Assembly: GCA_002842575.1 (NCBI GenBank)
Contig: PHDJ01000001.1
Coordinates: 186,001-250,000, forward strand
DNA length: 64,000 nucleotides
Direction: 5' to 3'
Source of the DNA: Bacteroidetes bacterium HGW-Bacteroidetes-2
GTDB lineage: Bacteria; Bacteroidota; Bacteroidia; Flavobacteriales; Flavobacteriaceae
Both the position numbers and the translations under genes were made by a program. The stretch's first letter is position 1. Every line of letters starts with the position of its first letter. Under the pieces are notes generated by a model that was not told the DNA's origin, did no database searches, and worked only from the letters and a program-made list of their open reading frames with translations. Shown here piece by piece: positions 14,057-26,265 of the stretch.

Positions 14057-14263
14057 TTAATTACAACAATTGCCACCTGAATTTTTAATGCCAAATTTCT
14101 TAAGGATGTCTTCCAAAAGACACCATTTGGTCAATGAAGATTGCAAAAGGTTTGCGCCTACAAAGGCAGTAAACCATAACCAATTTATGTTTACATAAAT
14201 GGCTAATAACAAACTAATTACTATAAATGCGCCAGCTATGCCGCGTACAACTCTGTTTAACAT
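14057..14263 (-). CDS. DUF2892 small membrane protein
   Basis: A 68-aa protein with two closely spaced hydrophobic segments (8-24 and 27-45) and the family signature NRVVRGIAGAF ... WLWFTAFVGANLLQSSLTKWC ... EDILKKFGI. DUF2892 domains are also found fused to rhodaneses (YgaP type) and are common in sulfur-handling clusters. It is the last gene of the predicted RND operon. Cys48 is in the usual position after the second helix, and a CC pair sits near the C-terminus. A role in sulfur or thiol handling at the inner membrane is inferred from family and context. Confidence 0.85.
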   Translation of the reverse strand: MLNRVVRGIAGAFIVISLLLAIYVNINWLWFTAFVGANLLQSSLTKWCLLEDILKKFGIKNSGGNCCN

Positions 14264-14346
14264 ATTTCTATTTTTTTAATTAATAATTCATTTGTTTGAA
14301 CTGATTTTCTGTTTTCTTCAGTGGTTAGTTTTTAAATACTTCTGCT

Positions 14347-14655
14347 TTAACTTAAAGCTTTTTCAATACTTAAAACGGCTACATGTATTTTAGAAGCAGT
14401 TTTTTGTTTGGCATTAAACGCAGTAACAATGGCAAACAAAGGATCTACAAGATCTTTTTTTACAAAAGCATAGAACAATACCGACTCGGTTTCATTCATT
14501 TCACCGGCAAACCAATTATCATCTACAGAATGCTCTGTTAAGTCCTTATATCCTATGACATTTCTGTAAGAAAAATTTTCAACATTAGCTTCTTTAAGCG
14601 TTTGTTTTATTGTTTTTTCAAACTCTTTTATGGCGGTAATAACAAGTAGTTTCAT
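14347..14655 (-). CDS. PII-like small protein of the RND operon
   Basis: A 102-aa protein beginning MKLLVITAIKEFEKTIKQTL. Its pattern (beta strand, helix, strand with SYRNVIGYKD, and a second half ending KIHVAVLSIEKAL) suggests a PII/CutA-like ferredoxin fold as in the small DUF3240-type proteins that accompany RND pumps. It does not show the full PII T-loop. It lies 52 bp after the pump gene and before the DUF2892 gene, in the same operon. A regulatory or ligand-sensing role for the pump is an inference. Assignment to a named family is tentative. Confidence 0.6.
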   Translation of the reverse strand: MKLLVITAIKEFEKTIKQTLKEANVENFSYRNVIGYKDLTEHSVDDNWFAGEMNETESVLFYAFVKKDLVDPLFAIVTAFNAKQKTASKIHVAVLSIEKALS

Positions 14656-14707
14656 AGATATTTTGTATCGCTATTTCTCCAAAAAAGAACATTGCGAATG
14701 TATTAAG

Positions 14708-17700
14708 TTAGACATTATCGTTCGTTTCATTTTCTTTTTGTATTTCATCTATTGGAATTTCTGTGGTTTCCCATTTCATTCTTTCGGTCATATAATAAAT
14801 TATAGGCACTACTGCCAATGTTAGCAGGGTAGAAACGATTGCTCCAGCCACTAAGGAAATTGCCAGACCCTGAAATACAGGATCAAATAAAATGATAGAT
14901 GCTCCTATAACCACAGCCCCTGTAGTCAATAATATGGGAGTGGTTCGCACTGCCCCGGCATCAATTATGGCTTGTTTTAAAGGAATGCCGTCATTAAGCC
15001 GAATTTCAATAAAATCAATCAGCAACACCGAATTTCTTACCATAACACCCGCCAAAGCAATCATTCCGATAAAAGATGTTGCGGTGAAAAATGCTCCTAA
15101 TAGCCAGTGCCCAAGAACAACTCCTATTAATGAAAGTGGTATCGCAACCATCATCACCATTGGGGTTTTAAAATTTTGAAACCATCCCACAATCAACATA
15201 TAAATAATGATGATGACCACTAAAAAGGAGGTGCCCAAATCACGAAAAACTTCCAGTGTTATTTGCCATTCGCCATCCCATTTCACTGTAAAATCTCTTT
15301 CGTCAGTGGGCTGTTGTGCATAGAGTTCGTTTATGGTATATCCTTCAGGCAATTTAATTTCTTTCAGTTTTTCATTCATTCCTAAAATGGCATACACCGG
15401 ACTTTCCAATTCTCCAGCCATATCAGCAGTTACATACACTACTTGTTTTTGGTCCTTGCGATAAATGGTTTTTTGTAAAGTATCTTGCCGTATATTTACC
15501 AAATCGCTTACTGGTACTAATTTGCCCTGACTTCCTTTAATTTTTAATTGCAGAATGTCTTGTAAACTCGTTTTATTGGTATCGTCTAGTGATAAAACAA
15601 TACCAATATTGTCATTAGAGGTTTCATCATACAAATTAGAAATTGGGTATTCTTGCAGTAAATAGGTCAAATTACCAACTATTTGTTGCGGTGCAATGCC
15701 TTGAAGCATGGCTTTTTCTTTGTCAACTTCCAGTTTATATTCCAGTTGATGGTCTTCTACCATCCAATCGATATCAACAATATCTACCGTATTATGAAGA
15801 ATTTCTTTTACTTGACGAGCTACTTTTATTTGTTCTTCATAATCAGGACCATATATTTCGGCAACTAGGGTGGATAATACAGGAGGTCCCGGTGGCACTT
15901 CAATAATTTTTACATTGGCGCCGTATTTTTTACCTATTTTTTGAATTTCAGGACGCACTTGTTTTGCGATGTCGTGGCTCTGAAGTGTTCTTTCTGATTT
16001 ATGCAATAAATTTACCTGAATATCGGCCATATTACTCCCGCCGCGTAAATCGTAATGACGAACCAATCCGTTGAAGGTAATGGGTGCTGAAGTGCCAACA
16101 TAATTTTGATAATCTACTACTTCCGGAACGGTGGATACATACTGTGCAATTTCTTTAGTTACCGCTGATGTACGCTCTAAAGTAGTGCTTTCGGGCATAT
16201 CAATAACAATTTGAAATTCGTTTTTATTATCAAAAGGCAACATTTTTACCACCACCGAATTTGTAAAAAACAATAGTACGGAGCCCAAAAGCAATACCAC
16301 GGTAATGCCCAACATAACAAAACGTTTTGTTTTGCTTTCTAAAAATGGTCGCTCTATTTTGTTGTATATTTTGTAAATTTTATTCGTGTGAAGTCCATCT
16401 TCCTCTTTGTCCTTTTGTTTGTCCTTTTCGCGCAATAAATGGTAGCCTAAATATGGCGTTACCGTTAATGCAACAAACAAAGACAAAATCATAGCTATAG
16501 AAGCTCCAATGGGCATCGGGCTCATATAAGGGCCCATCATCCCTGACACGAATGCCATAGGAAGAATAGCGGCTATCACCGTAAAAGTGGCTAAGATGGT
16601 TGGATTTCCTACTTCATTAATGGCATAAATGGCAGCTTGTTTAAAAGGCAAACGCTTCATTTTAAAATGCCGGTGCATGTTTTCTGCTATGATAATACTG
16701 TCATCAACTACGATACCTACCACAAAAACCAATGCAAAAAGAGTGATCCTATTTAGAGTATAATCTAGCATAAAATAACTAAATAAGGTAAGTGCAAAGG
16801 TTAATGGCACGGAGAAAAACACGACCAAACCACCACGCCAACCCATAGCAAGCATCACCAAAATCGTAACTGCAATAATAGCAACGCCTAAATGCATCAA
16901 CAATTCGCCTACTTTGTCTGACGCTGTTTCTCCATAATTTCGGGTTACTTCTACATGAACATCTTTTGGAATTAAGTTTTGTTTCAGGACTTCTACTTTG
17001 GCTAAAATTTTATCTGAAATTTTCATCGCATCGGCACCTTGCACTTTTGCGATAGATATGGTAACTGCAGGATATTCAGACGGTGCATTTTTATAATTTT
17101 CATTAGCTTTGCTATAGCCAAAGGACACATAACTTCTAGCTGTAGAAGGGCCATCTTGAATAGTTGCTACTTGCTTTAAATATACCGGCATATCTTGGTT
17201 TACTCCAATCACTAAATTTTCAACATCTTCTGCGGTTTTTAAAAACTGCCCCGTGGTAATCAAAAATTCCTGATCGTTTTGAACAAAACTACCCGATTGT
17301 GAGCTGCTATTATTGGCTTGTATCATGTGCATAATGCCCAATGCATCCACGCCATTTTCTGCCATCTTATCTAAATCTAAAATCACTTTCAGCTCCCGAT
17401 TTCTACCACCTATTTCTTTGGTAATGGCAACATCTTTTACCTTTTCTATTTCAGAGGTCACTTCTTCAGCAATCTGACGAATTTCAAAATCGTTGTAGTT
17501 TTCACTCCAAAGTGTCAAGCCAAGCATTGGCACATCGTCAATAGAACGGGTTTTGACAATAGGCGCATATACACCTTGCGGAAACATGGATTGGTGTTTC
17601 ATCAACTCGTCATAGAGCTTTACATAGGAACGCTCCACATCTTCTCCTACATAAAATTGAACAATAAGCAAGGCTTGGCCGTTCATTGCCATACTGTGAA

Positions 17701-17953
17701 TATGCTCTACCCCTTTAATATTAGAAATTACTTTTTCTAATGGTTTGATCACTCGGCTTTCCACTTCTGTAGGACTTGCACCGGGATAGCCCACCATAAT
17801 ATCTGCCATAGGCACATTTATTTGTGGCTCTTCTTCTCTTGGTATTAGAAATGAGCTATAAATGCCAATTGCCATCAATGCCACCATCAATAAAACGGTT
17901 AATTTTGAGTGGATAAAAAACCCGGCTATTTTTCCTGAAATTCCTTCTTTCAT
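14708..17953 (-). CDS. RND efflux pump, inner-membrane subunit
   Basis: A 1081-aa AcrB/CzcA-superfamily transporter with twelve predicted membrane helices and two large periplasmic loops. The N-terminus shows TM1 then IPREEEPQINVPMADI and YPGASPTEVESRV. TM4 contains VVGIVVDDSIIIAEN, the acidic pair of drug-type (HAE) pumps that carries protons. A heavy-metal signature was not identified. It is the third gene of a tight five-gene operon (TolC, adaptor, pump, PII-like, DUF2892). Its promoter carries the same palindrome as the sulfide-oxidation genes nearby, so the natural substrate may be a sulfur compound or a toxic by-product; drug or metal export remains possible. Confidence 0.9.
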   Translation of the reverse strand: MKEGISGKIAGFFIHSKLTVLLMVALMAIGIYSSFLIPREEEPQINVPMADIMVGYPGASPTEVESRVIKPLEKVISNIKGVEHIHSMAMNGQALLIVQFYVGEDVERSYVKLYDELMKHQSMFPQGVYAPIVKTRSIDDVPMLGLTLWSENYNDFEIRQIAEEVTSEIEKVKDVAITKEIGGRNRELKVILDLDKMAENGVDALGIMHMIQANNSSSQSGSFVQNDQEFLITTGQFLKTAEDVENLVIGVNQDMPVYLKQVATIQDGPSTARSYVSFGYSKANENYKNAPSEYPAVTISIAKVQGADAMKISDKILAKVEVLKQNLIPKDVHVEVTRNYGETASDKVGELLMHLGVAIIAVTILVMLAMGWRGGLVVFFSVPLTFALTLFSYFMLDYTLNRITLFALVFVVGIVVDDSIIIAENMHRHFKMKRLPFKQAAIYAINEVGNPTILATFTVIAAILPMAFVSGMMGPYMSPMPIGASIAMILSLFVALTVTPYLGYHLLREKDKQKDKEEDGLHTNKIYKIYNKIERPFLESKTKRFVMLGITVVLLLGSVLLFFTNSVVVKMLPFDNKNEFQIVIDMPESTTLERTSAVTKEIAQYVSTVPEVVDYQNYVGTSAPITFNGLVRHYDLRGGSNMADIQVNLLHKSERTLQSHDIAKQVRPEIQKIGKKYGANVKIIEVPPGPPVLSTLVAEIYGPDYEEQIKVARQVKEILHNTVDIVDIDWMVEDHQLEYKLEVDKEKAMLQGIAPQQIVGNLTYLLQEYPISNLYDETSNDNIGIVLSLDDTNKTSLQDILQLKIKGSQGKLVPVSDLVNIRQDTLQKTIYRKDQKQVVYVTADMAGELESPVYAILGMNEKLKEIKLPEGYTINELYAQQPTDERDFTVKWDGEWQITLEVFRDLGTSFLVVIIIIYMLIVGWFQNFKTPMVMMVAIPLSLIGVVLGHWLLGAFFTATSFIGMIALAGVMVRNSVLLIDFIEIRLNDGIPLKQAIIDAGAVRTTPILLTTGAVVIGASIILFDPVFQGLAISLVAGAIVSTLLTLAVVPIIYYMTERMKWETTEIPIDEIQKENETNDNV

Positions 17954-17975
17954 CTATTTGTATTTATTTGATTTT

Positions 17976-19061
17976 TTATTTAATAGCCACTTTTGCGCCG
18001 TCAAACAATTTACCTTCTGCCGAAATGATATATTTTTCATCTGCTGTTAATCCGGAAAGCACTTCTACAAGATTTCCGTAGGTTTTTCCGGTGCGCAACC
18101 ATCTTAAAATAGCAGTGTTTTCATTTCCTATGGTGTAAATTCCTGTGAGTTGTCCATAAGTTACTAATGCGCTTTCAGGTACTAAAAGCACCTCATTTTG
18201 ATTAGCACTTGCTGCAATTTTTTCTATAGGGAATCGCACATTGACAAACATTCCCGATAAAATAGACGAGTCATTTTCTTTTAAATTTATTTTTACGACA
18301 TATTGTCCGCCGGTATTTTTAGCCGAAAGGCTTACTTCAGAAACTTTTCCATCTACTTCTTTGTTCAAAGATTTTAGAAGTACTTTTACAGACATTCCGT
18401 TTTTAATTTCAGTAATATTGCCTTCGGAAACCATAGTTTTTACTTGCAATTTTGAAATACCTTCTACACTTAACAAAGGCATTCCCGGATTAGCCATATC
18501 GCCTTCTTTTACAAAAGTATTGGTTACTATTCCTGAAAATGGTGCAGTAATATTTGCATACGAAAATTGTGCAAGGACTTCATTTTTTATTTGTTTTGCA
18601 CCTTCTAATCCTGCTTTTGCCATTTCAAAACGAGAAGTCATATCGTCCAACTCTTTTTGCGAGGCACTTTGCTGCTGAAATAAATTGACAAAACGGTCGT
18701 AATCCTTTTTAGCGTTGTTGTAACCTGCGGTAGCTTGTAAAACCCCTGCCTCTGCTTGGGCTTTTTTCGCCTGTAAATCGGTGTTGTTGATGCTCACTAA
18801 TAGTTGGCCATCACGTACTTCCTGTCCAGTTTTTACGTGTACTTTGTTCACATAACCCATCATTCGGGTGCTAAGCGTTGCACTGTTTTCGGCCTCAACA
18901 GTCCCACTGGCATTTATATACTGTGAAGTGGTGCTTTCGGAAACTTCGTTTACTTGCACTAATATAGCAGGCAATTGTGTTACTGCGTTTTTTTTGTCTC
19001 CGCCACAGGAAGTGATTATTGCAGCAAATAGCAATATAAAAAGTAATTGAATTTTTTTCAT
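17976..19061 (-). CDS. RND periplasmic adaptor (membrane fusion protein)
   Basis: A 361-aa lipoprotein with a lipobox ending at Cys19 (ITSC). It has the adaptor architecture: a barrel-sandwich hybrid (GTVEAENSATLSTRMMGYVN ... VKTGQEVRDGQLLVSI), an alpha-helical hairpin rich in Ala/Gln/Lys (about 90-150), the return half (ITAPFSGIVTNTFVKEGDMA), and beta-barrel and membrane-proximal domains. It links the pump at 14708-17953 to the TolC-like channel. It ends 22 bp before the pump start and begins 4 bp after the channel gene's stop. Confidence 0.9.
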   Translation of the reverse strand: MKKIQLLFILLFAAIITSCGGDKKNAVTQLPAILVQVNEVSESTTSQYINASGTVEAENSATLSTRMMGYVNKVHVKTGQEVRDGQLLVSINNTDLQAKKAQAEAGVLQATAGYNNAKKDYDRFVNLFQQQSASQKELDDMTSRFEMAKAGLEGAKQIKNEVLAQFSYANITAPFSGIVTNTFVKEGDMANPGMPLLSVEGISKLQVKTMVSEGNITEIKNGMSVKVLLKSLNKEVDGKVSEVSLSAKNTGGQYVVKINLKENDSSILSGMFVNVRFPIEKIAASANQNEVLLVPESALVTYGQLTGIYTIGNENTAILRWLRTGKTYGNLVEVLSGLTADEKYIISAEGKLFDGAKVAIK

Positions 19062-19065
19062 TGTC

Positions 19066-20370
19066 TTATTTAGTTAAAAAGTGTACATAGGCATAGGCCA
19101 CGTTATATTCATAAATTGTTTGATAATATTCCAACTGTTTTTGGGCATATTGTGCTTCTGAAGACAATAAATCGCTTGTTTTTACTAATCCTTCTTTAAA
19201 CCTGTTGGTGCGAATACGAAAAGATTCCTCAGAAAGTTCAAGAGCTAATCCGGCTCTTTTTAGTCTGTTTTGTGCATCGTCTAGGCTACGTTTCGCTTTG
19301 TTGAACTCTAATTGACTTTTAGCTACATATTGCTCATATTGCAGCATCGATTTATCAAATTCTGCTTTACTTTTTTGCATTTTTCCGAAACGTTTGGTGC
19401 CTTGTAAAATATCCCAATTTAATTTGGCTCCAATAAAATAACTGTTAGAGGCACCGTGAAATACTTGGTTGTCATAAAGTTCATAATTGCCAAAAGCGTT
19501 TAGGGTTGGCAAAAACGCCATCTTGTCGGATTGATTTTTTATTTTATAGGCTTGCGTACCTTTTTCTATTGCCAGAATATCTGCCCTTGAAGTAGAAATC
19601 TGATCCACTTCTGTAATCGCATTAGGCACAATACCTAAACTATCTGAAGGCACGAATACCAAATTAGGAGTTTCATTTATCAAGAAATGCAAATAGTCTG
19701 ATACATTTTTTACATTGCTTTTTGCATTTTCAAGTTGGTTTTCTACCTCATTAACGCGCACTTCCACATCTAAAACATCGGACTGGAGCAATAGGCCTTG
19801 TTCAAAATATTTTCGGGTTACTTTCAGGTTTTCCAATGCTGCTTTTTGTGCTTTTTCTAGTACAGATACTGCTTTATAGGATAATTGCAGCATCATATAG
19901 GTTTTTTCACCTTCTAATAAAAGTTCGTCTTTTTTAAATGTGTTTTGATATTGGGTTGCCTCCATCACATATTTTGCGGCACTTCGCTGTTTCCAACCAT
20001 CCACATTAATAAGGGGTTGTTCAAAGGAAATGCTTGTGGTAAAATTGTCTATTGCCTTAGGATTGTTTAGGTTATCTATAGCAAAATCATTTTCAGAAAA
20101 TACGCTTTGATTTAATTTTGCCATAAAAGCATATACCGGATTGTTGGTTGATGTACTTGTATGCGAAATGGATATATTTGGTATTAATAAAGCATTTGTT
20201 TGTCGGTAATTTGAGCGTGCTTCCAAAAATTCTTGCTGTGAAATTTTAATACTTTGGTTATTCTCAGAAAGCTTGGTAAGCATTTCTTCTTTTGAAAGCG
20301 TTTTTTGTTGCTGTGCGTGCAAAAAACTTCCAGAAAAGAGTACTATAAATAATAGGATGTATGTTTTCAT
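19066..20370 (-). CDS. TolC-family outer-membrane channel
   Basis: A 434-aa protein with a signal peptide (1-19, HAQ). It has the two-fold TolC repeat of long coiled-coil helices: LEARSNYRQTNALLIPNIS, ALENLKVTRKYFEQGLLLQSD, and in the second half LELSEESFRIRTNRFKEGLV. It forms the exit duct of the tripartite pump. It is the first gene of the operon; the -7 element (20393-20400) lies 23 bp before the start and the palindromic operator at 20422-20437. Confidence 0.9.
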   Translation of the reverse strand: MKTYILLFIVLFSGSFLHAQQQKTLSKEEMLTKLSENNQSIKISQQEFLEARSNYRQTNALLIPNISISHTSTSTNNPVYAFMAKLNQSVFSENDFAIDNLNNPKAIDNFTTSISFEQPLINVDGWKQRSAAKYVMEATQYQNTFKKDELLLEGEKTYMMLQLSYKAVSVLEKAQKAALENLKVTRKYFEQGLLLQSDVLDVEVRVNEVENQLENAKSNVKNVSDYLHFLINETPNLVFVPSDSLGIVPNAITEVDQISTSRADILAIEKGTQAYKIKNQSDKMAFLPTLNAFGNYELYDNQVFHGASNSYFIGAKLNWDILQGTKRFGKMQKSKAEFDKSMLQYEQYVAKSQLEFNKAKRSLDDAQNRLKRAGLALELSEESFRIRTNRFKEGLVKTSDLLSSEAQYAQKQLEYYQTIYEYNVAYAYVHFLTK

Positions 20371-20392
20371 TTTTTATCTTCAATTTACAAGG

Positions 20393-20437
20393 CAAAAGTA
20401 CGTCGGTAAAGAAGAGGTGTCAGTAACCTTTGTTACT
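20393..20437 (-). promoter_or_regulatory. Sulfur-island operator and promoter of the RND operon
   Basis: AGTAACCTTTGTTACT (20422-20437) is a palindrome with N4 spacer. On the minus strand the -7 element TACTTTTG (20393-20400) matches TAnnTTTG fully and begins 29.5 bp from the operator centre, roughly -43 relative to the expected start: a class II activator position. Confidence 0.75.
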
Positions 20438-20549
20438 TTGAGCTACTTTATTCAACAATTGCTCCCTAGATAAAAAAATGAAGTGATTAGGATGTATTAG
20501 GAAAAGCTATTCATTGGTTTTTTATAAATTAATTGAAAATTTTATTGTA

Positions 20550-20980
20550 TTATTTTGAAAAAACTTTAGGCAAACATCTGCCAGTTTTATTTTTATAGGC
20601 AAGGTATTCTGGAAATTTAATAGCTAATTGTTTCTCTTCGTATTTAGATTTGAAGTAAAACAAAACGCCTAGAACTAGGGTTATAATTAGTTTATAAAAT
20701 GAGTTTTGATATATGCTATACCCGAGAAAAAGCATCAAGATACTTGTATAAATAGGATGCCGGATGTATTTATACAAGCCTGTTTGAATAAGTGTGCCAT
20801 CTGCTTTTGGTGTTGGAAAAGCGAAATTAAGACTAATATTCCTCCTAAAAGAAACATAAGGGTTCCGAAGGTTTTCATACTATGGAATAGCTTTAATGAC
20901 CCATCTACCTTAAAAACAAAAGCTATAAACAAAAGTAATTGCAAGCAAACAAAAATATAACCTTTTTTATTTGTCTGCAT
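20550..20980 (-). pseudogene. Isoprenylcysteine methyltransferase-like membrane protein, frameshifted
   Basis: Two overlapping frames make one gene. The 5' frame (20980-20735) has hydrophobic helices and ends in a nonsense tail; the correct continuation from about 20830 is in another frame and reads TPKADGTLIQTGLYKYIRHP, then IYTSILML and EEKQLAIKFPEYLAYK, the signature of the ICMT/DUF1295-type methyltransferase fold. A few residues expected just before TPKADG are also missing, so a small deletion with frameshift near 20815-20835 is likely. It lies between the TolC gene and the broken SQR gene, with no operator of its own. Confidence 0.75.
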
Positions 20981-21143
20981 GTTGCTACTTAGTATAGTTT
21001 ACATCTCTACTACTTCCATGACCTTTAGATACAATTTTTAAGATTTTTAGATTTAGGAGAAGGTATCTAAAAAATTGAAGTATAGGGTTTTGCATTCTTG
21101 CCCGTTTTGATTTTGATATTATTTGTGTCATTTTTTTGTTATT

Positions 21144-22599
21144 TTATTCAGGAATTAACCACCAGAAGGGTTTCATTTTTGCTTTGTAAATAAAGGCATA
21201 ATGCAGCGTCATTTTCAGCCAATGACCCGCTAAGCCAATTTCTCCAAAAGTTTTACTTAAATCCCTACCTTGGGTATTTTTATATTTTACATAATCCGGT
21301 ACTATAGGATAAGTTGTTATGCTTACGCCACTTCCTTGTGTCCTTCCATATCCGGCAGAAGCAATGCAAGCAGCTCCCATATTTGCCATAGAACCTTTGT
21401 TATCCAGTGACATTTTGCCTTTTTTAATGGCGTCAATAATATTATCTGCAACTAATTTTGCTGTTATGCCGGAAGGCATTCCGGTTCTGGGAGGGGATGG
21501 AAATATTTCCGTTCCGTTTTTACTTTTTCTAGGTTTTGATATGGTATGCGGTGGTGCAAAAGCTATTCCTGGTGCAAAAATGTTACCATAACTAGGGTTC
21601 TGATAGGTTTCCAGCCAATCTTGCGCTGTCCATTCTTCATAGGGTTTTGGCTTATAATCAGCATCCACAATCATAAATCCTTTGAACAGTTTTTCTGTTA
21701 TCTCTTGGTTATTTTTATCATACGCTTTAAAACCATGACCTGAAAAAGCTGGAATTAGCATAGCAAAATCAAAGGTTTCGGTTTTATATTCGCCCTCTAA
21801 ATTTTCATAATGCGCTAAACCATCTTCAATTTTTGTAACACCGGCACCTAAAATCCATTTAATATTTCGGTCTTCAAAAATCATTTCCATCATTTCATTA
21901 GACTTCATCGTCATACCGCCATAACTTAATAAAGCCCCATCAATACCAAAATCTCCCAATTTATATTCGTTAGAAATCCAAGTAATTTCGGCTTTGTCAC
22001 GAACGCCGTGTTTTACTAATTCTCTTTCAACATTCAAAATATATTCAAAAGCAGCCCCTTGGCAGGTTGCCTTAGGATGGCCCGTGCCTATTAAGATTTT
22101 TACATTTTTCCCCAGCTTCATCTCCTTAATTAATGTCTCTAGAGCTCTCCAGGTAGGTTCAGCATGGGTATAGGTACAAACGGAATGTGTTTTGTTTTTT
22201 TCAGGGATAAGACCCTCTGTTGCTTCAAAAATAAGTTTTGGACCGGTGGCGTTTATGAGATAGCCATAGGTTACTTTTTCTTGTTTTACTTTGTTTTGTT
22301 CTGTAACATGCTCAACTAAAACATAAGGCATGGTTTTAGAAATATCTCCTTCAGGTTAAAAGCCACTGCTTTGGCTTGTAAAAAGTCAATGTTTTTTCTT
22401 TTATAAAGAGGTGACAGTGGGAATAGATTTTTTTTGATTTAATTCTTCCAATACCTAACCATATATTTAAAGGAATCCATTGGCAATTGCTGTTTGGTGA
22501 TACCACTTCAACTTTATGTTCTTTTGAAAGTTTTCTGCGTAAATGCGCTTCTGCTACGTGACCTGAAATTCCGGCAACTAAAACGAGTACTTTTGCCAT
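21144..22599 (-). pseudogene. Sulfide:quinone oxidoreductase, broken by two frameshifts
   Basis: The parts together give an FAD-dependent sulfide:quinone reductase, which oxidises sulfide at the membrane and passes electrons to quinone. The N-terminal frame (22599-22351) begins MAKVLVLVAGISGHVAEAHL; the first Gly of the FAD-binding GxGxxG is replaced by Val. Frame changes near 22430 (an A/T run) and near 22355 are needed to join it to the 395-codon C-terminal frame (22331-21144), which has YLINATGPKL, GTGHPKATCQGAAFEY, PAFSGHGFKA and GAACIASAGYG. The altered Gly suggests true decay. The promoter with its operator (22638-22682) is still intact. Confidence 0.85.
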
Positions 22600-22637
22600 T
22601 ATTTTAAAACAAGGAAGAATATGTGCTATTCTTGTTG

Positions 22638-22682
22638 TAAATTTCTAAAAATGTATTTGGTTATACAGTAACATTTGTTACT
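22638..22682 (-). promoter_or_regulatory. Sulfur-island operator and promoter of the SQR gene
   Basis: AGTAACATTTGTTACT (22667-22682) is almost identical to the operator of the RND operon. At the same 29.5-bp distance on the minus strand is GAAATTTA (22638-22645), which keeps the A and TTT of the -7 box. Confidence 0.65.
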
Positions 22683-22738
22683 TAGGGTGTTTTTATATGG
22701 AGCAAGTTATAAAATAAAAGGCTTCTAGGTGATGCTCA

Positions 22739-23104
22739 TTATTTCCAGGCGGAATATCCTCCCTTTAAATCAAATATCTGGGTAAATCCCATTTTTAGGA
22801 GAAGTTTTGCTGCACTATTACTTCTGCCTCCAGAATGACAATAAATATAGACCGGTTGTTCTTTGTCTAAAGTTTCAAATTTTTTATTAAACTCTTCTTT
22901 TTGATAAAAATTAATATTTATTGAACCCTCAATATGACCTTTTGCATATTCTTGTGGTGTACGCACATCCACTAACTGTACTTTTTTAGAGGCTATAGAG
23001 GCTTTATAGGTTGGCACATCTAAAAGTTCAACGTGTCCCTTTTCTTGTGCAAAAGAAAAGTTAAGTAAGAAAAGAAAGGAAAACACTGTAAATATAACTT
23101 TCAT
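22739..23104 (-). CDS. Periplasmic single-domain rhodanese
   Basis: A 121-aa exported rhodanese: signal peptide 1-19 (FSFAQ), then the typical QLVDVRTPQEYAKGHIEGSI and active-site Cys89 in IYCHSGGRS, ending DLKGGYSAWK. The cysteine can carry a persulfide, so the protein probably transfers sulfane sulfur in the periplasm. It is monocistronic, with an operator/promoter at 23205-23249, and lies between the SQR gene and the MBL-rhodanese gene. Confidence 0.9.
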   Translation of the reverse strand: MKVIFTVFSFLFLLNFSFAQEKGHVELLDVPTYKASIASKKVQLVDVRTPQEYAKGHIEGSININFYQKEEFNKKFETLDKEQPVYIYCHSGGRSNSAAKLLLKMGFTQIFDLKGGYSAWK

Positions 23105-23204
23105 AGTATTTCTAAATTAAATAAGGGAGTAAAATAGGATTGTACTCCCCTTTATGAAACCAACCAATTATTAATGAAAATTATGGATTTAGATAATTTA
23201 CGTG

Positions 23205-23249
23205 CAAAATTGGTGGGTTATTTTTCTTTGTATAAGAACTTTTGTTACT
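23205..23249 (-). promoter_or_regulatory. Sulfur-island operator and promoter of the rhodanese gene
   Basis: The right half GTTACT and N4 spacer are conserved (23234-23249); the left half is degenerate (AAGAAC). The -7 element CAATTTTG (23205-23212) starts exactly 29.5 bp from the centre. Confidence 0.6.
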
Positions 23250-23270
23250 TTTAATTTGTTATATTAAAAT

Positions 23271-24710
23271 TTACGGGCAAACCTCATTGGTTACTGGAAT
23301 TCCTACTTTTTTAATATCGGCAAAACCTCCTGCTACGTCAATAAGGTTATGAATACCTCTACTTTTTAATATAGAAGCAGCAATAATACTGCGATATCCT
23401 CCCGCACAATGTAGATAAAAATCTTTATTGGAAGGAAATTCCGTTAAATAATCATTAAGGAAATCCAAAGGCGTTAATTTTGCTTTTTGGATATGAGAGG
23501 AGGCATATTCCCTTTCTTTGCGTACATCAAAAACGGGAATGTCCAAGGTTTCTATAACTTTTTTAAATTCCTCTGCTGAAATAGACGTCAGTGAATCTGT
23601 TTCCTTACCACTGCTTTTCCAAGCTGCAATTCCGCCTTGTAAAAAGCCAATTGTTTTGTCAAAACCAACTCTAGAAAGTCGGGTTATGGCTTCTTCTTCT
23701 TTACCTTGTGGACAAACCAAAAGTAGTGGTTGTTCCGTATCAGCCAGAAGTGCACCAACCCAAGGTGCAAATCCGCCTTCTAATCCAATAAATATGGATC
23801 GTGGAATATGGGCTTTCACAAAATCATTTTGATGGCGCACATCTAGGACAATGGCTCCGGATTCGTTTGCAGCTGCCTCAAAAGCCTCTGGAGAAAGTGC
23901 TTGAATACCTCTTGCAATTATAGCATCAATATCGTCATAGCCTTCTTTATTCATTTTTACGTTTAACGGAAAATATAAAGGTGGTGGCAAAAGCCCATCG
24001 GTTACTTCCTGAACAAATTCTTCTTTGGTCATATCGGCTCGTAAGGCATAATTCATTTTCTTTTGGTTGCCTAAAGTATCCACCGTTTCTTTCATCATAT
24101 TTTTTCCACAGGCAGAGCCAGCACCATGTGCCGGATATACAATAACATCATCTGCTAAAGGTATAATTTTAGTGCGTAAACTCTCAAAGAGCAATCCTGC
24201 AAGCTCTTCTTGTGTCATGGAAGCCGCTTTTTGAGCTAAATCGGGTCTACCTACATCGCCTAAAAATAAAGTATCCCCGCTAAATATGGCGAGGTCTTTT
24301 CCTTTATTGTTTTTTAAAAGATAGGTGGTGCTTTCCATAGTGTGTCCAGGAGTATGCAAGGCTGTAATTGTAAAATCACCTACTTGAAACACTTGCCCAT
24401 CATTTGCAATAATGGCATCAAAAAAAGGTTTTGCAGTGGGGCCAAAAACGATTGATGCACCAGTTTTTTTTGAAAGTGTGATATGACCACTTACAAAATC
24501 TGCATGAAAATGGGTTTCAAAAATATATTTTATTTTTGCATTGTCTTTTGCCGCTCTACTAATGTAGGGCTGCACTTCTCGTAAAGGGTCTATGATAACT
24601 GCTTCACCATTGCTTTGAATATAGTAAGCTCCTTGTGCCATACATCCTGTATATATTTGTTCTACCCCTGCAAGGGCACGAATCGAATCTTTTGAGTTTT
24701 TGTTCTTCAT
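23271..24710 (-). CDS. MBL-fold hydrolase fused to two rhodanese domains (persulfide dioxygenase-like)
   Basis: A 479-aa cytoplasmic protein. Residues 1-250 are a metallo-beta-lactamase fold with ETHFHADFVSGH (metal ligands His67, His69, Asp71), LHTPGHTMESTTYLL and FSGDTLFLGDVGRPDL, as in the ETHE1/Blh persulfide dioxygenase group. Residues about 260-350 and 375-475 are two rhodanese domains, with cysteines in LLLVCPQGKEE and YLHCAGGYRS. The fusion would oxidise glutathione or other low-molecular-weight persulfide to sulfite and trade sulfur through the rhodaneses. It is downstream of the TauE gene by 50 bp, likely one operon. Phe72 replaces the His of the usual second metal site, typical of the mononuclear-iron members. 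Confidence 0.88.
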   Translation of the reverse strand: MKNKNSKDSIRALAGVEQIYTGCMAQGAYYIQSNGEAVIIDPLREVQPYISRAAKDNAKIKYIFETHFHADFVSGHITLSKKTGASIVFGPTAKPFFDAIIANDGQVFQVGDFTITALHTPGHTMESTTYLLKNNKGKDLAIFSGDTLFLGDVGRPDLAQKAASMTQEELAGLLFESLRTKIIPLADDVIVYPAHGAGSACGKNMMKETVDTLGNQKKMNYALRADMTKEEFVQEVTDGLLPPPLYFPLNVKMNKEGYDDIDAIIARGIQALSPEAFEAAANESGAIVLDVRHQNDFVKAHIPRSIFIGLEGGFAPWVGALLADTEQPLLLVCPQGKEEEAITRLSRVGFDKTIGFLQGGIAAWKSSGKETDSLTSISAEEFKKVIETLDIPVFDVRKEREYASSHIQKAKLTPLDFLNDYLTEFPSNKDFYLHCAGGYRSIIAASILKSRGIHNLIDVAGGFADIKKVGIPVTNEVCP

Positions 24711-24760
24711 TATTTCTTTTTTAACACATTTCTAAAATAAGGCTTTGAGTGCAAATTAAC

Positions 24761-25564
24761 TCATAAATGGATAATCTCTTTCAACAAAATATAAATTGCC
24801 ATAATCAGTACAAACCAACCAAAAGTTTTTTTTAGTTTTTCACCTTGGATAAAATGGTTTAACCAAACCCCTGCAAATATACCTAAAACCGACAAAAGAG
24901 TGAATATTAAAAGAAAATTCCAATCCATAGATAAATTTTCCACATCCCCAATAAATCCGATGAGCGATTTAATGGCGATAATGAGTAAGGAAGTAGCAAC
25001 AGCCTTTTTCATTGGTAACTTTGCTAATAACACCAGCGCAGGAATAATAAGGAATCCGCCTCCTGCTCCTACAAGTCCTGTAAGAATTCCTATAACAAAT
25101 CCTTCCACAACAATTAACGGGTAGTTATACGTAATGGGCGTGTCCTCTTTTGGTTCTTCTCGCTTATTTCTTAGCATAGAATAGGATGCTAAAAGCATGA
25201 TTATCGCAAAAAACATCATGATTCCAACCCCTTTAGAAATAGCAAAATCTCCATAGTTGAAAAGGTTTTCAGGTATTGCTGGTACTAGAAATTTTCGGGT
25301 GCTATAAACTGCAATAAATGCTGGTGTAGCAAAAACAAAGGCAATTTTAAAATCTACCAATTTTTTTTTAAAATTTTGAAAAGCACCTACCAAAGCGGAA
25401 ACCCCCACAACAAACAAAGAATATGCAGTTGCTGTAACCGGATTTACTGCAAACAAATACACAAATACCGGAACAGTGAGTATGGAGCCGCCACCACCTA
25501 TTAAGCCAAGTACTACTCCTATAAGAAGAGCACCTATATAACCAAAAATTTCAATAGTTTCCAC
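24761..25564 (-). CDS. TauE/SafE-family sulfite or sulfur-anion exporter
   Basis: A 267-aa membrane protein with about eight helices and the family's repeated glycine motifs: ALLIGVVLGLIGGGGSILTV near the N-terminus and FVIGILTGLVGAGGGFLIIP in the second half. TauE/SafE proteins move sulfite, thiosulfate, sulfoacetate or related anions. It is first in the unit with the MBL-rhodanese gene, whose expected product is sulfite, so export of that product is the likely job. The promoter carries the sulfur-island operator. Confidence 0.88.
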   Translation of the reverse strand: METIEIFGYIGALLIGVVLGLIGGGGSILTVPVFVYLFAVNPVTATAYSLFVVGVSALVGAFQNFKKKLVDFKIAFVFATPAFIAVYSTRKFLVPAIPENLFNYGDFAISKGVGIMMFFAIIMLLASYSMLRNKREEPKEDTPITYNYPLIVVEGFVIGILTGLVGAGGGFLIIPALVLLAKLPMKKAVATSLLIIAIKSLIGFIGDVENLSMDWNFLLIFTLLSVLGIFAGVWLNHFIQGEKLKKTFGWFVLIMAIYILLKEIIHL

Positions 25565-25584
25565 AGATTGTTTTTATAAGACAA

Positions 25585-25629
25585 CAAAAATACTTCTATA
25601 AAATGGTTCTTATAGCAACAAAAGTTGCA
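25585..25629 (-). promoter_or_regulatory. Sulfur-island operator and promoter of the TauE-MBL unit
   Basis: AGCAACAAAAGTTGCA (25614-25629) is a perfect palindrome related to the others (C/G for T/A at one position of each arm). The -7 element TATTTTTG (25585-25592) matches TAnnTTTG fully and starts exactly 29.5 bp from the centre. Confidence 0.75.
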
Positions 25630-25632
25630 CAT

Positions 25633-26265
25633 TTATACCTCTAAAAGGTGAATGGCATTTCGTTGCAATTTTATTTTTCCTCTATTTTCAAGTGTTTTGA
25701 GTAAACGGGAAACTACTACCCTAGAAGTATGTAAATCATACGCTATTTCCTGATGGGTATTGTAAATGGTTTTGTCTTTATTTACCCGTACTTTTTCTTG
25801 GAGATATTTCCACAAACGTTCGTCCATTTTTAAAAAGGCAATACTGTCTATGGTTTCTAACATTTCGTTTAATCGTTGGTGGTAACTGTCAAAAACAAAA
25901 TTTCGCCAACTTTTGTATTTTGCGGTCCAATCTTCCATTTTTTGAATGGGTATCATCATAAGCTTTGTGTCTCTTTCGGCTACAGCACGTATCTCACTCT
26001 TTTTTTGACCTAGGCAACAACTTAATGTCATTGCACAAGTATCGCCGCGTTCTAGAAAATAAAGGAGCAATTCGTCACCTTGTCCATCTTGCCGAAGCAC
26101 TTTGATGGCACCAGAAATAAGTAGCGGCATAGACGTAACATATTGCCCTATTTCTATAAGTTGAAAGCCTTCAGAAATTTCTTTATAAATGCCAACACTC
26201 TCTATTTCCTGAAGTAGTGCTTCCTCAAAAAGATGTCCGTAATTTTCACGAAGTAATTCTATCAT
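25633..26265 (-). CDS. Crp/Fnr-family regulator with Cys77, Cys83 and Cys84
   Basis: A 210-aa protein: cyclic-nucleotide-binding-type barrel (30-110), dimer helix (110-145) and winged helix (about 150-205) with recognition helix TSRVVVSRLLKTLENRGKI. Arg182 and Arg187 correspond to the base-reading arginines of CRP, but the glutamate between them is Val, so a non-CRP site is expected. Cys77, Cys83 and Cys84 (DTCAMTLSCCLG) lie where cyclic nucleotide binds in CRP and are good candidates for persulfide or thiol sensing. It is adjacent to the TauE operon and is the natural candidate to bind the GTAAC-N4-GTTAC palindromes. No site is seen before its own gene. Confidence 0.85.
   Translation of the reverse strand: MIELLRENYGHLFEEALLQEIESVGIYKEISEGFQLIEIGQYVTSMPLLISGAIKVLRQDGQGDELLLYFLERGDTCAMTLSCCLGQKKSEIRAVAERDTKLMMIPIQKMEDWTAKYKSWRNFVFDSYHQRLNEMLETIDSIAFLKMDERLWKYLQEKVRVNKDKTIYNTHQEIAYDLHTSRVVVSRLLKTLENRGKIKLQRNAIHLLEV

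Follow-up and report, generated by a model that had tools for sequence, protein, structure and literature searches.

A conserved operator suggests joint control of sulfide genes and an RND pump by a CRP-type regulator in Flavobacteriaceae

The 64,000-nucleotide (nt) stretch of Bacteroidetes bacterium HGW-Bacteroidetes-2 analyzed here (contig PHDJ01000001.1, positions 186,001 to 250,000; the window, whose own coordinates are used throughout) contains a sulfur island at 14,057-26,265, in which genes for sulfide:quinone oxidoreductase (SQR), rhodaneses, a TauE/SafE-family transporter and a tripartite TolC-adaptor-RND pump accompany the gene for a CRP/FNR-type regulator at 25633-26265. Judged from sequence comparison, it is very probable that a CRP-type activator controls these sulfur genes together with the RND pump through a shared operator, GTAAC-N4-GTTAC, and what we regard as the decisive support for that operator, likewise comparative, is its conservation in relatives.

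An earlier note on this DNA had reported four such palindromes, each at a fixed distance from a TAnnTTTG box, which we take to be the Bacteroidetes -7 element. All four palindromes are indeed present (Table 1), and the spacer is 22 nt, equivalent to 29.5 bp from palindrome center to -7 box, at every one of the four promoters. The fixed distance claimed for every case therefore holds for the position of the box but not for its quality, as the box of SQR is degenerate. Scored against the full form GTAAC-N4-GTTAC-N22-TAnnTTTG (the full motif), the pump promoter has no mismatches, those of SQR and TauE have two each and that of the rhodanese has three.

Orthologs of the RND permease (E threshold 1e-200) are found as one match each in 59 of the 149 family genomes surveyed, including our own. 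From the other 58 pump genomes, G062, G015 and G089 were left out on account of partial or contig-end genes, and locus L239 (G033) is without a recognized TolC gene, leaving 54 to be scored. An operator, allowing one mismatch each in palindrome and -7 box, lies ahead of TolC in 51 of these 54, and is exact in 45, compared with 0 of 54 for each of four control palindromes. The spacer is 22 nt at 47 of the 51 sites and 23 nt at the other 4, and the distance from the start of the palindrome to the estimated TolC start is 58-94 nt in 50 cases and 172 nt in one. Therefore, the pump appears to belong to the regulon family-wide rather than as a peculiarity of the window, and the suggestion that it shares a regulon with the sulfide genes gains support from sequence. 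A homolog of the small 102-aa protein is encoded no more than 1.5 kb from RND in all 30 of the best pump loci (L102-L131, our own included), and a YgaP-like (DUF2892) homolog stands beside RND in all 30 as well. In the sister species G042 an exact palindrome lies between SQR and TolC (L062 1447-1460) and is scored as a TolC site, which speaks against a single SQR-TolC operon there.

Across the 149 genomes, with all 31 spacers from 12 to 42 nt allowed, full-motif matches are present in 104 and total 253, where the reversed control gives 57. Among the matches listed, 150 of the 253, the spacer is 22 nt in 114, 21 nt in 12 and 23 nt in 6. An agnostic census of 56 regulator loci, open to every palindrome of 5-nt half-sites followed 21-23 nt later by an exact -7 box, returned GTAAC in 61 of 73 instances (L048 and L064 are one and the same contig), and five more distant regulator loci (L056-L060) yield no such combination. 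The 22 spacer positions of 166 distinct sites carry at most 0.33 bits each, with the maximum just behind the palindrome, and thus there is no conserved -33 element. Such a lack, combined with fixed operator spacing, would be the layout expected of an activator-dependent promoter. The class II arrangement, in which a site is centered near -41.5 at a fixed distance from the -7 or -10 element, is matched on spacing, with a transcription start that is a predicted and not a mapped position. It is from this class II-like position and the missing -33 element that we infer activation. A common operator so placed, as the earlier note proposed, is borne out by the comparison across relatives, and more strongly than that note could show, given the 114 of 150 listed spacers and the 51 of 54 pump operons.

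Within the genome itself, the bare palindrome is not rare. At up to two mismatches it is found 34 times in the window, where 22.1 are expected, and 2 of 100 shuffles reach 34. Over the whole genome at up to one mismatch there are 90 sites, compared with 176 for the reversed pattern, and the full motif at up to three mismatches is not enriched either (27+25 vs 49+28). Since the bare palindrome is this common on its own, the claim had to be decided by comparison with relatives, and of the two sequence-based checks among those that the earlier note had named, occurrence elsewhere and conservation in relatives, the composite motif passed both. That the bare motif is only weakly enriched in the window, and not at all genome-wide, is what could be said for the view that the shared palindrome reflects chance or base composition, a view that the comparative tests, including the 51 of 54 pump operons with a site and the empty controls, make barely credible. 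Across the 3.0 Mb genome, the pump promoter alone matches the full motif with a 22-nt spacer perfectly. At up to two mismatches there are seven full-motif sites, of which two lie inside open reading frames (ORFs) on the opposite strand and five outside long ORFs; the five precede the pump, SQR, TauE, a DUF302-rhodanese-rhodanese operon on contig C66 and, on C75, a YgaP-like gene with a GTGAC variant. The C66 operon (L164, near 36398), in which DUF302 and two rhodaneses stand behind a two-mismatch copy of the motif, is likely a further member of the regulon. The third exact palindrome of this genome, C77:32060, falls within a 115-aa ORF and is absent from the listed full-motif sites.

Does the neighboring CRP/FNR protein bind this operator? 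The motif is found in 100 of the 117 genomes with a regulator ortholog (E <=1e-50, our own genome included) vs 4 of the 32 without one (Fisher 1.4e-14, kinship uncorrected). A second line of evidence comes from 20 stretches around paralogs of the regulator. In CRP, the glutamate of the REV recognition helix reads the G of GTGA. Five of the nine paralogs with a REV helix adjoin GTGAC-N4-GTCAC at equal spacer (L298, from our own genome, L299, L307, L308 and L309), and none of the nine adjoins GTAAC. The helix is RVV in 50 of the 57 proteins from regulator loci, and none of the nine RVV paralogs adjoins GTGAC. Loss of the glutamate therefore fits the change of operator from GTGAC to GTAAC. Given the co-occurrence across genomes and this independent change of helix and operator in paralogs, the protein at 25633-26265 is the likely binder of GTAAC-N4-GTTAC, and the earlier assignment is upheld on both counts. 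At L298 (C75:14713-19297) the paralog has Cys77 without Cys83/84 and a REV helix, and lies beside GTGAC-N4-GTCAC and the YgaP-like gene; it is perhaps, to go by its sequence, a sister regulon with its own operator.

Alternatively, a separate, unlinked factor could bind the palindrome, with the CRP-type gene being a mere passenger. In only 29 of 59 genomes do the pump and a copy of the regulator share a contig at a distance of no more than 40 kb, and in G126 that copy is only a 34% paralog; moreover, G088 and G147 have motif matches with the regulator undetected. The co-occurrence of motif and regulator and the matched helix and operator changes nevertheless make a passenger very improbable. 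Regulator and pump also co-occur, the pump being found in 57 of 117 genomes with the regulator vs 2 of 32 without (Fisher 4e-6).

The remaining genes of the island share the operator to different degrees. In the 56 regulator loci, an exact palindrome lies upstream of 27 of 35 TauE genes, with 4 more at one mismatch and none of 35 for four control palindromes, and upstream of 27 of 41 metallo-beta-lactamase (MBL) genes; among five SQR genes, two have it exactly and the other three with one mismatch. Some of the genes scored in these loci stand second in an operon. We also examined 52 stretches (L240-L291) around other listed full-motif matches, mostly far from pump and regulator and hand-picked rather than random. 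All but one carry sites with a spacer of 21-23 nt (59 in 51 stretches), and at 25 of the 59 a homolog of the TauE, MBL, rhodanese or SQR of the window lies within the next three ORFs. Further recurring targets by Pfam are YeeE/YedE (PF04143), SulP (PF00916), DsrE (PF02635), DoxX, thioredoxins, a SoxA/TsdA-type cytochrome, an NrfD-type protein with ferredoxin domains, YgaP-like proteins (PF11127), Tll0287-like and HMA proteins and CydA. One operon recurs behind the motif in L261, L262, L276, L280 and L291, and comprises a 117-121 aa protein, a DoxX-like protein (PF07681 in L262) and a 138-141 aa protein. Beyond the family, a phylum-wide draw found the motif (spacer 21-23) in 26 of 247 genomes. 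Of these 26, 15 belong to the family (27 genomes drawn), none to the rest of its order (3 drawn), 9 to other groups of the class (31 drawn) and 2 to the remainder of the draw (186 genomes). Nine of the 13 sites in the rest of the class are followed by a BLAST match to TauE, MBL, YeeE, TolC or the regulator.

Besides the lack of genome-wide enrichment described above, several observations count against joint control of these genes through the operator. In our own genome the TauE site, the rhodanese site and the SQR -7 box are degenerate, and the SQR gene is frameshifted. Three of the 54 pump operons are without a site (L195, L213 and L235). G088, which is 87% complete, has the pump and its site with the regulator undetected, and G147 has two motif matches, again with the regulator undetected. 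Four of the nine REV paralogs are without a nearby site, and only one of the nine RVV paralogs adjoins GTAAC (L305, a stretch shared with one REA paralog), one adjoining an unrelated palindrome (L304) and the rest none. An exact palindrome lies upstream of only 11 of 30 rhodanese genes and only 4 of 55 regulator genes. Finally, some sites precede genes of no evident sulfur role, such as a PruA-like dehydrogenase (L265), a fatty acid hydroxylase (L246, PF04116), a plastocyanin-like protein (L288) and a second RND (L289), the PruA-like and plastocyanin-like labels having been read from sequence by eye, and in two genomes from another family of the class (L320 and L344) the motif precedes genes that we read as hybrid cluster protein-like, possibly hinting at a nitrosative-stress branch.

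Membership of the regulator in the CRP/FNR superfamily is indicated by PF00027 and PF13545, both above cut-off, and by Foldseek, whose best matches are 4ev0, 3dv8 and CAP. E. coli CRP contacts cAMP through E72, R82 and S83; the aligned residues here are M79, K89 and S90, so that only one of the three is kept, and the NCBIfam equivalog NF008732 scores 47 bits against a cut-off of 266, and we therefore reject a cAMP-dependent CRP. The oxygen sensor FNR holds its [4Fe-4S] cluster with four cysteines, three of them near the N-terminus. The regulator has only three, C77, C83 and C84, without the N-terminal arrangement, and an FNR-type reading was likewise rejected. These three form a Cys-x5-CysCys motif that aligns with the cyclic-nucleotide pocket of CRP, and they are retained in 57, 56 and 55, respectively, of 57 aligned homologs. 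In the paralogs of the 20 stretches, C77 is mostly kept and C83, C84 or both are mostly lost. An AlphaFold model (mean pLDDT 86.4) places the cysteines in a short helix, 77-85.

Conserved cysteines at the ligand site of a protein with a sulfur regulon make a thiol sensor of persulfide or polysulfide the simplest reading, and on these sequence grounds we somewhat favor a reaction of persulfide or polysulfide with Cys77 and Cys83/Cys84 that would set the active form of the regulator. However, the cysteine helix is the least certain part of the model (block pLDDT 67 and 59), and cysteine conservation does not identify the ligand. The regulator could conceivably sense oxygen, nitric oxide or redox state instead, by way of a metal or Fe-S cluster on the three cysteines, the sulfur genes then being part of a respiratory switch. 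Such a switch would be in keeping with targets that include CydA and cytochrome genes, with the hybrid cluster protein-like genes in two genomes of another family, and with FNR and DNR among the fold matches. Yet the recurring targets are genes of sulfur transport, persulfide and sulfur transfer, the cysteines are only three and lack the N-terminal FNR arrangement, and bd oxidase is known, too, as a sulfide-resistant oxidase. We consider the respiratory alternative unlikely.

What the pump exports is less readily deduced from its control. The permease is AcrB-type, with PF00873 matched over nearly its full length and adaptor and TolC partners present, and a heavy-metal RND of the CusA/CzcA kind was rejected, as TIGR00914 scores 233.7 bits against a cut-off of 701.45. 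Plasmid records contain 54 matches to the pump, the best 30 of them at 38.5-59.1% identity, and 15 of these 30 were viewed, chosen for different genera. In the 6-9 kb neighborhoods of the 13 that are annotated, DUF2892/YgaP-like proteins are found in 12, ArsR in 10, a FAD or FAD/NAD(P) oxidoreductase in 8 and a rhodanese/sulfurtransferase in 6, although these counts cover this pump lineage alone. Four of the oxidoreductases, and four of five ArsR proteins, match the SQR_III and BigR models, respectively, below cut-off, and one ArsR protein is nearest in the Protein Data Bank (PDB) to HlyU, NolR, another ArsR protein and BigR. The pump of a Flammeovirga plasmid, the closest in sequence, has none of these four neighbors, and that of Vibrio has DUF2892 only. 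The same pump lineage thus appears, from its gene neighborhoods, to be linked with sulfur genes in Bacteroidota, Cyanobacteria and Alphaproteobacteria, and since the association persists in several phyla while the regulator changes, an argument can be made that the pump is tied to sulfide biology in its own right.

The earlier note had known of no description of the pump-sulfide link, and its novelty was overstated, as extracts of two papers already contain it. In Azospira suillum, one operon encodes an efflux pump, an SQR and an RND adaptor; it is strongly expressed while H2S is being oxidized, and metal sulfide export was suggested for it (PMC5358917, in extract). RND pumps are also named among likely targets at loci of sHdrR-related ArsR regulators (PMC12423496, in extract). 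However, deletion of the Azospira operon left the sulfide oxidation rate unchanged (PMC5358917, in extract), so that oxidation as such seems not to need the pump, whose role may instead be in tolerance or export.

On the evidence of sequence, the pump could conceivably rid the cell of a sulfane-sulfur compound in excess, or of a toxic by-product of that chemistry, with a sulfur-containing substrate being possible but rather doubtful. A stronger contender, if still short of probable, is that the pump responds to a secondary effect of sulfide, for example by exporting metal-sulfide complexes, quinones, damaged lipids or ordinary drugs, and does not export a pathway sulfur compound. By sequence match, the permease is of the AcrB/AcrD/AcrF family, a class that usually moves organic amphiphiles, an HMA-domain gene is among the targets, and the Azospira reports of metal sulfide export and of a deletion without effect on oxidation agree with it; the low TIGR00914 score and the repeated link of the pump with sulfur genes in three groups do not. 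As one of the genes with a site encodes a fatty acid hydroxylase, lipid-related export was also weighed, but not adopted. Fatty acid hydroxylase-like genes lie behind or near the operator in L246 (PF04116), L280 and L325, the latter two by BLAST or by eye.

Taken together, we propose that the regulator at 25633-26265 would act as a CRP-fold activator, binding GTAAC-N4-GTTAC approximately 41-43 bp ahead of the transcription start in class II fashion, and would turn on TauE, MBL-rhodanese, rhodanese, SQR and the operon for TolC, adaptor, RND, small protein and YgaP-like protein. Its active form would be set by reaction of persulfide or polysulfide at Cys77 and Cys83/Cys84, and the pump would export surplus sulfane sulfur or a toxic by-product. 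A wider version, which we hold only as a tentative and on balance doubtful proposal, is that a CRP-fold sulfane-sulfur sensor of a type we have not seen described, with cysteines replacing the cAMP pocket, acts as master activator for the oxidation and detoxification of sulfur in Flavobacteriaceae and in further Bacteroidia, with the pump a dedicated persulfide/polysulfide exporter whose lineage is under ArsR-type control in Proteobacteria and Cyanobacteria.

The features of the island are collected in Table 1. The MBL-rhodanese protein has 3tp9, 3r2u and ETHE1 4chl as PDB relatives. The SQR gene is broken in its N-terminal part, where alignment with the intact gene of the near relative L055 (94% in the C-terminal part) shows two one-base gaps and several substitutions, and no second SQR gene is found in this genome at E 1e-10. 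The break may be a sequencing error in the draft assembly or mark a young pseudogene. Identity as SQR follows from PDB homology, the L055 ortholog matching the solved SQR structures 3hyv (E 1.3e-36) and 3sz0 (E 2.8e-35); the NCBIfam SQR_III model scores below its cut-off.

Table 1. Operators, -7 boxes and genes of the sulfur island in window coordinates, all on the minus strand
Feature	Position	Strand	Remarks
Pump operator	20423..20436	(-)	exact GTAAC-N4-GTTAC; precedes TolC-adaptor-RND operon
Pump -7 box TACTTTTG	20393..20400	(-)	exact; spacer 22
SQR operator	22668..22681	(-)	exact GTAAC-N4-GTTAC; also exact in near relative L055
SQR -7 box GAAATTTA	22638..22645	(-)	degenerate, 2 of 6 fixed bases wrong; 22 nt past operator
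Rhodanese operator	23235..23248	(-)	2 mismatches, second arm weak; exact in near relative L055
Rhodanese -7 box CAATTTTG	23205..23212	(-)	one mismatch; spacer 22
TauE operator	25615..25628	(-)	2 mismatches, variant GCAAC-N4-GTTGC
TauE -7 box TATTTTTG	25585..25592	(-)	exact; 22 nt past operator
CRP/FNR-type regulator, 210 aa	25633..26265	(-)	Pfam cNMP_binding and HTH_Crp_2
TauE/SafE-family transporter	24761..25564	(-)	PF01925, E 2.3e-46
MBL with two rhodanese domains, persulfide dioxygenase-like	23271..24710	(-)	PF00753; PF00581 in 2 stretches
Single-domain rhodanese	22739..23104	(-)	PF00581, E 5e-27
SQR, N-terminal frame broken	21144..22599	(-)	ORFs 22351-22599 and 21144-22331 in different frames
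TolC-family outer membrane channel	19066..20370	(-)	PF02321, E 1.1e-39
RND periplasmic adaptor	17976..19061	(-)	TIGR01730 above cut-off
RND permease, 1081 aa	14708..17953	(-)	PF00873, E 5.5e-149
Small 102-aa protein, PII-like in the earlier note	14347..14655	(-)	no Pfam or NCBIfam match
YgaP-like membrane protein (DUF2892), 68 aa	14057..14263	(-)	PF11127, E 7.6e-12

Flavobacteriaceae are major marine heterotrophs, and we found no sulfide or persulfide regulator described for them in the open-access full text searched. A search of open-access full text, which covers few subscription papers or preprints, likewise found no CRP/FNR-type regulator of sulfide genes in Bacteroidota, nor the present regulator, its operator or its regulon in Flavobacteriaceae. 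As the operator is well defined, the regulon of any sequenced member of the family can be predicted from it. A tripartite RND pump, of a class usually tied to drugs or metals, gains a specific setting in sulfur handling, and its place in the regulon suggests, from sequence, that it is part of how the cell deals with reactive sulfur. If true, sensing through cysteines that stand where CRP has its cAMP pocket would be an unusual mechanism for this family.

Several known systems resemble parts of this arrangement. E. coli CRP and the CRP/FNR superfamily share with the regulator the fold, the helix-turn-helix, a palindromic operator and the class II-like position, whereas E72/R82 of CRP are replaced by M79/K89, the FNR cysteine set is missing, the helix reads RVV for REV and the operator GTAAC for GTGA. 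The best sequence match in the PDB, at 24% identity, is 3dv8, a Crp/Fnr protein of Eubacterium rectale, whose cysteines align with C77 and C83. A Crp-like protein of A. baumannii has the CRP fold and is persulfidated under sulfide, but is 50% identical to E. coli Crp (PMC7315123, in extract). The Azospira suillum operon Dsui_3440-3443, like the pump described here, joins an efflux pump and RND adaptor to sulfur metabolism through SQR, although it comes from another phylum and the likeness to the window pump is one of gene content alone (PMC5358917, in extract). A functional parallel is found in ArsR repressors of the BigR/SqrR/YgaV/SoxR type, which likewise control sqr, persulfide dioxygenase and rhodanese genes, and in which two conserved cysteines respond to sulfane sulfur. 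TauE and RND genes are named as likely targets at loci related to BigR/SqrR-type ArsR regulators (PMC12423496, in extract). Those proteins combine the ArsR fold with repression, whereas the regulator described here has a CRP fold, a class II-like activator position and Cys-x5-CysCys; it could act in a similar way, yet is no member of the ArsR persulfide sensor class. We rate a persulfide-type regulon as already known under ArsR and other regulators, and its control by a cysteine-bearing CRP fold as the new part.

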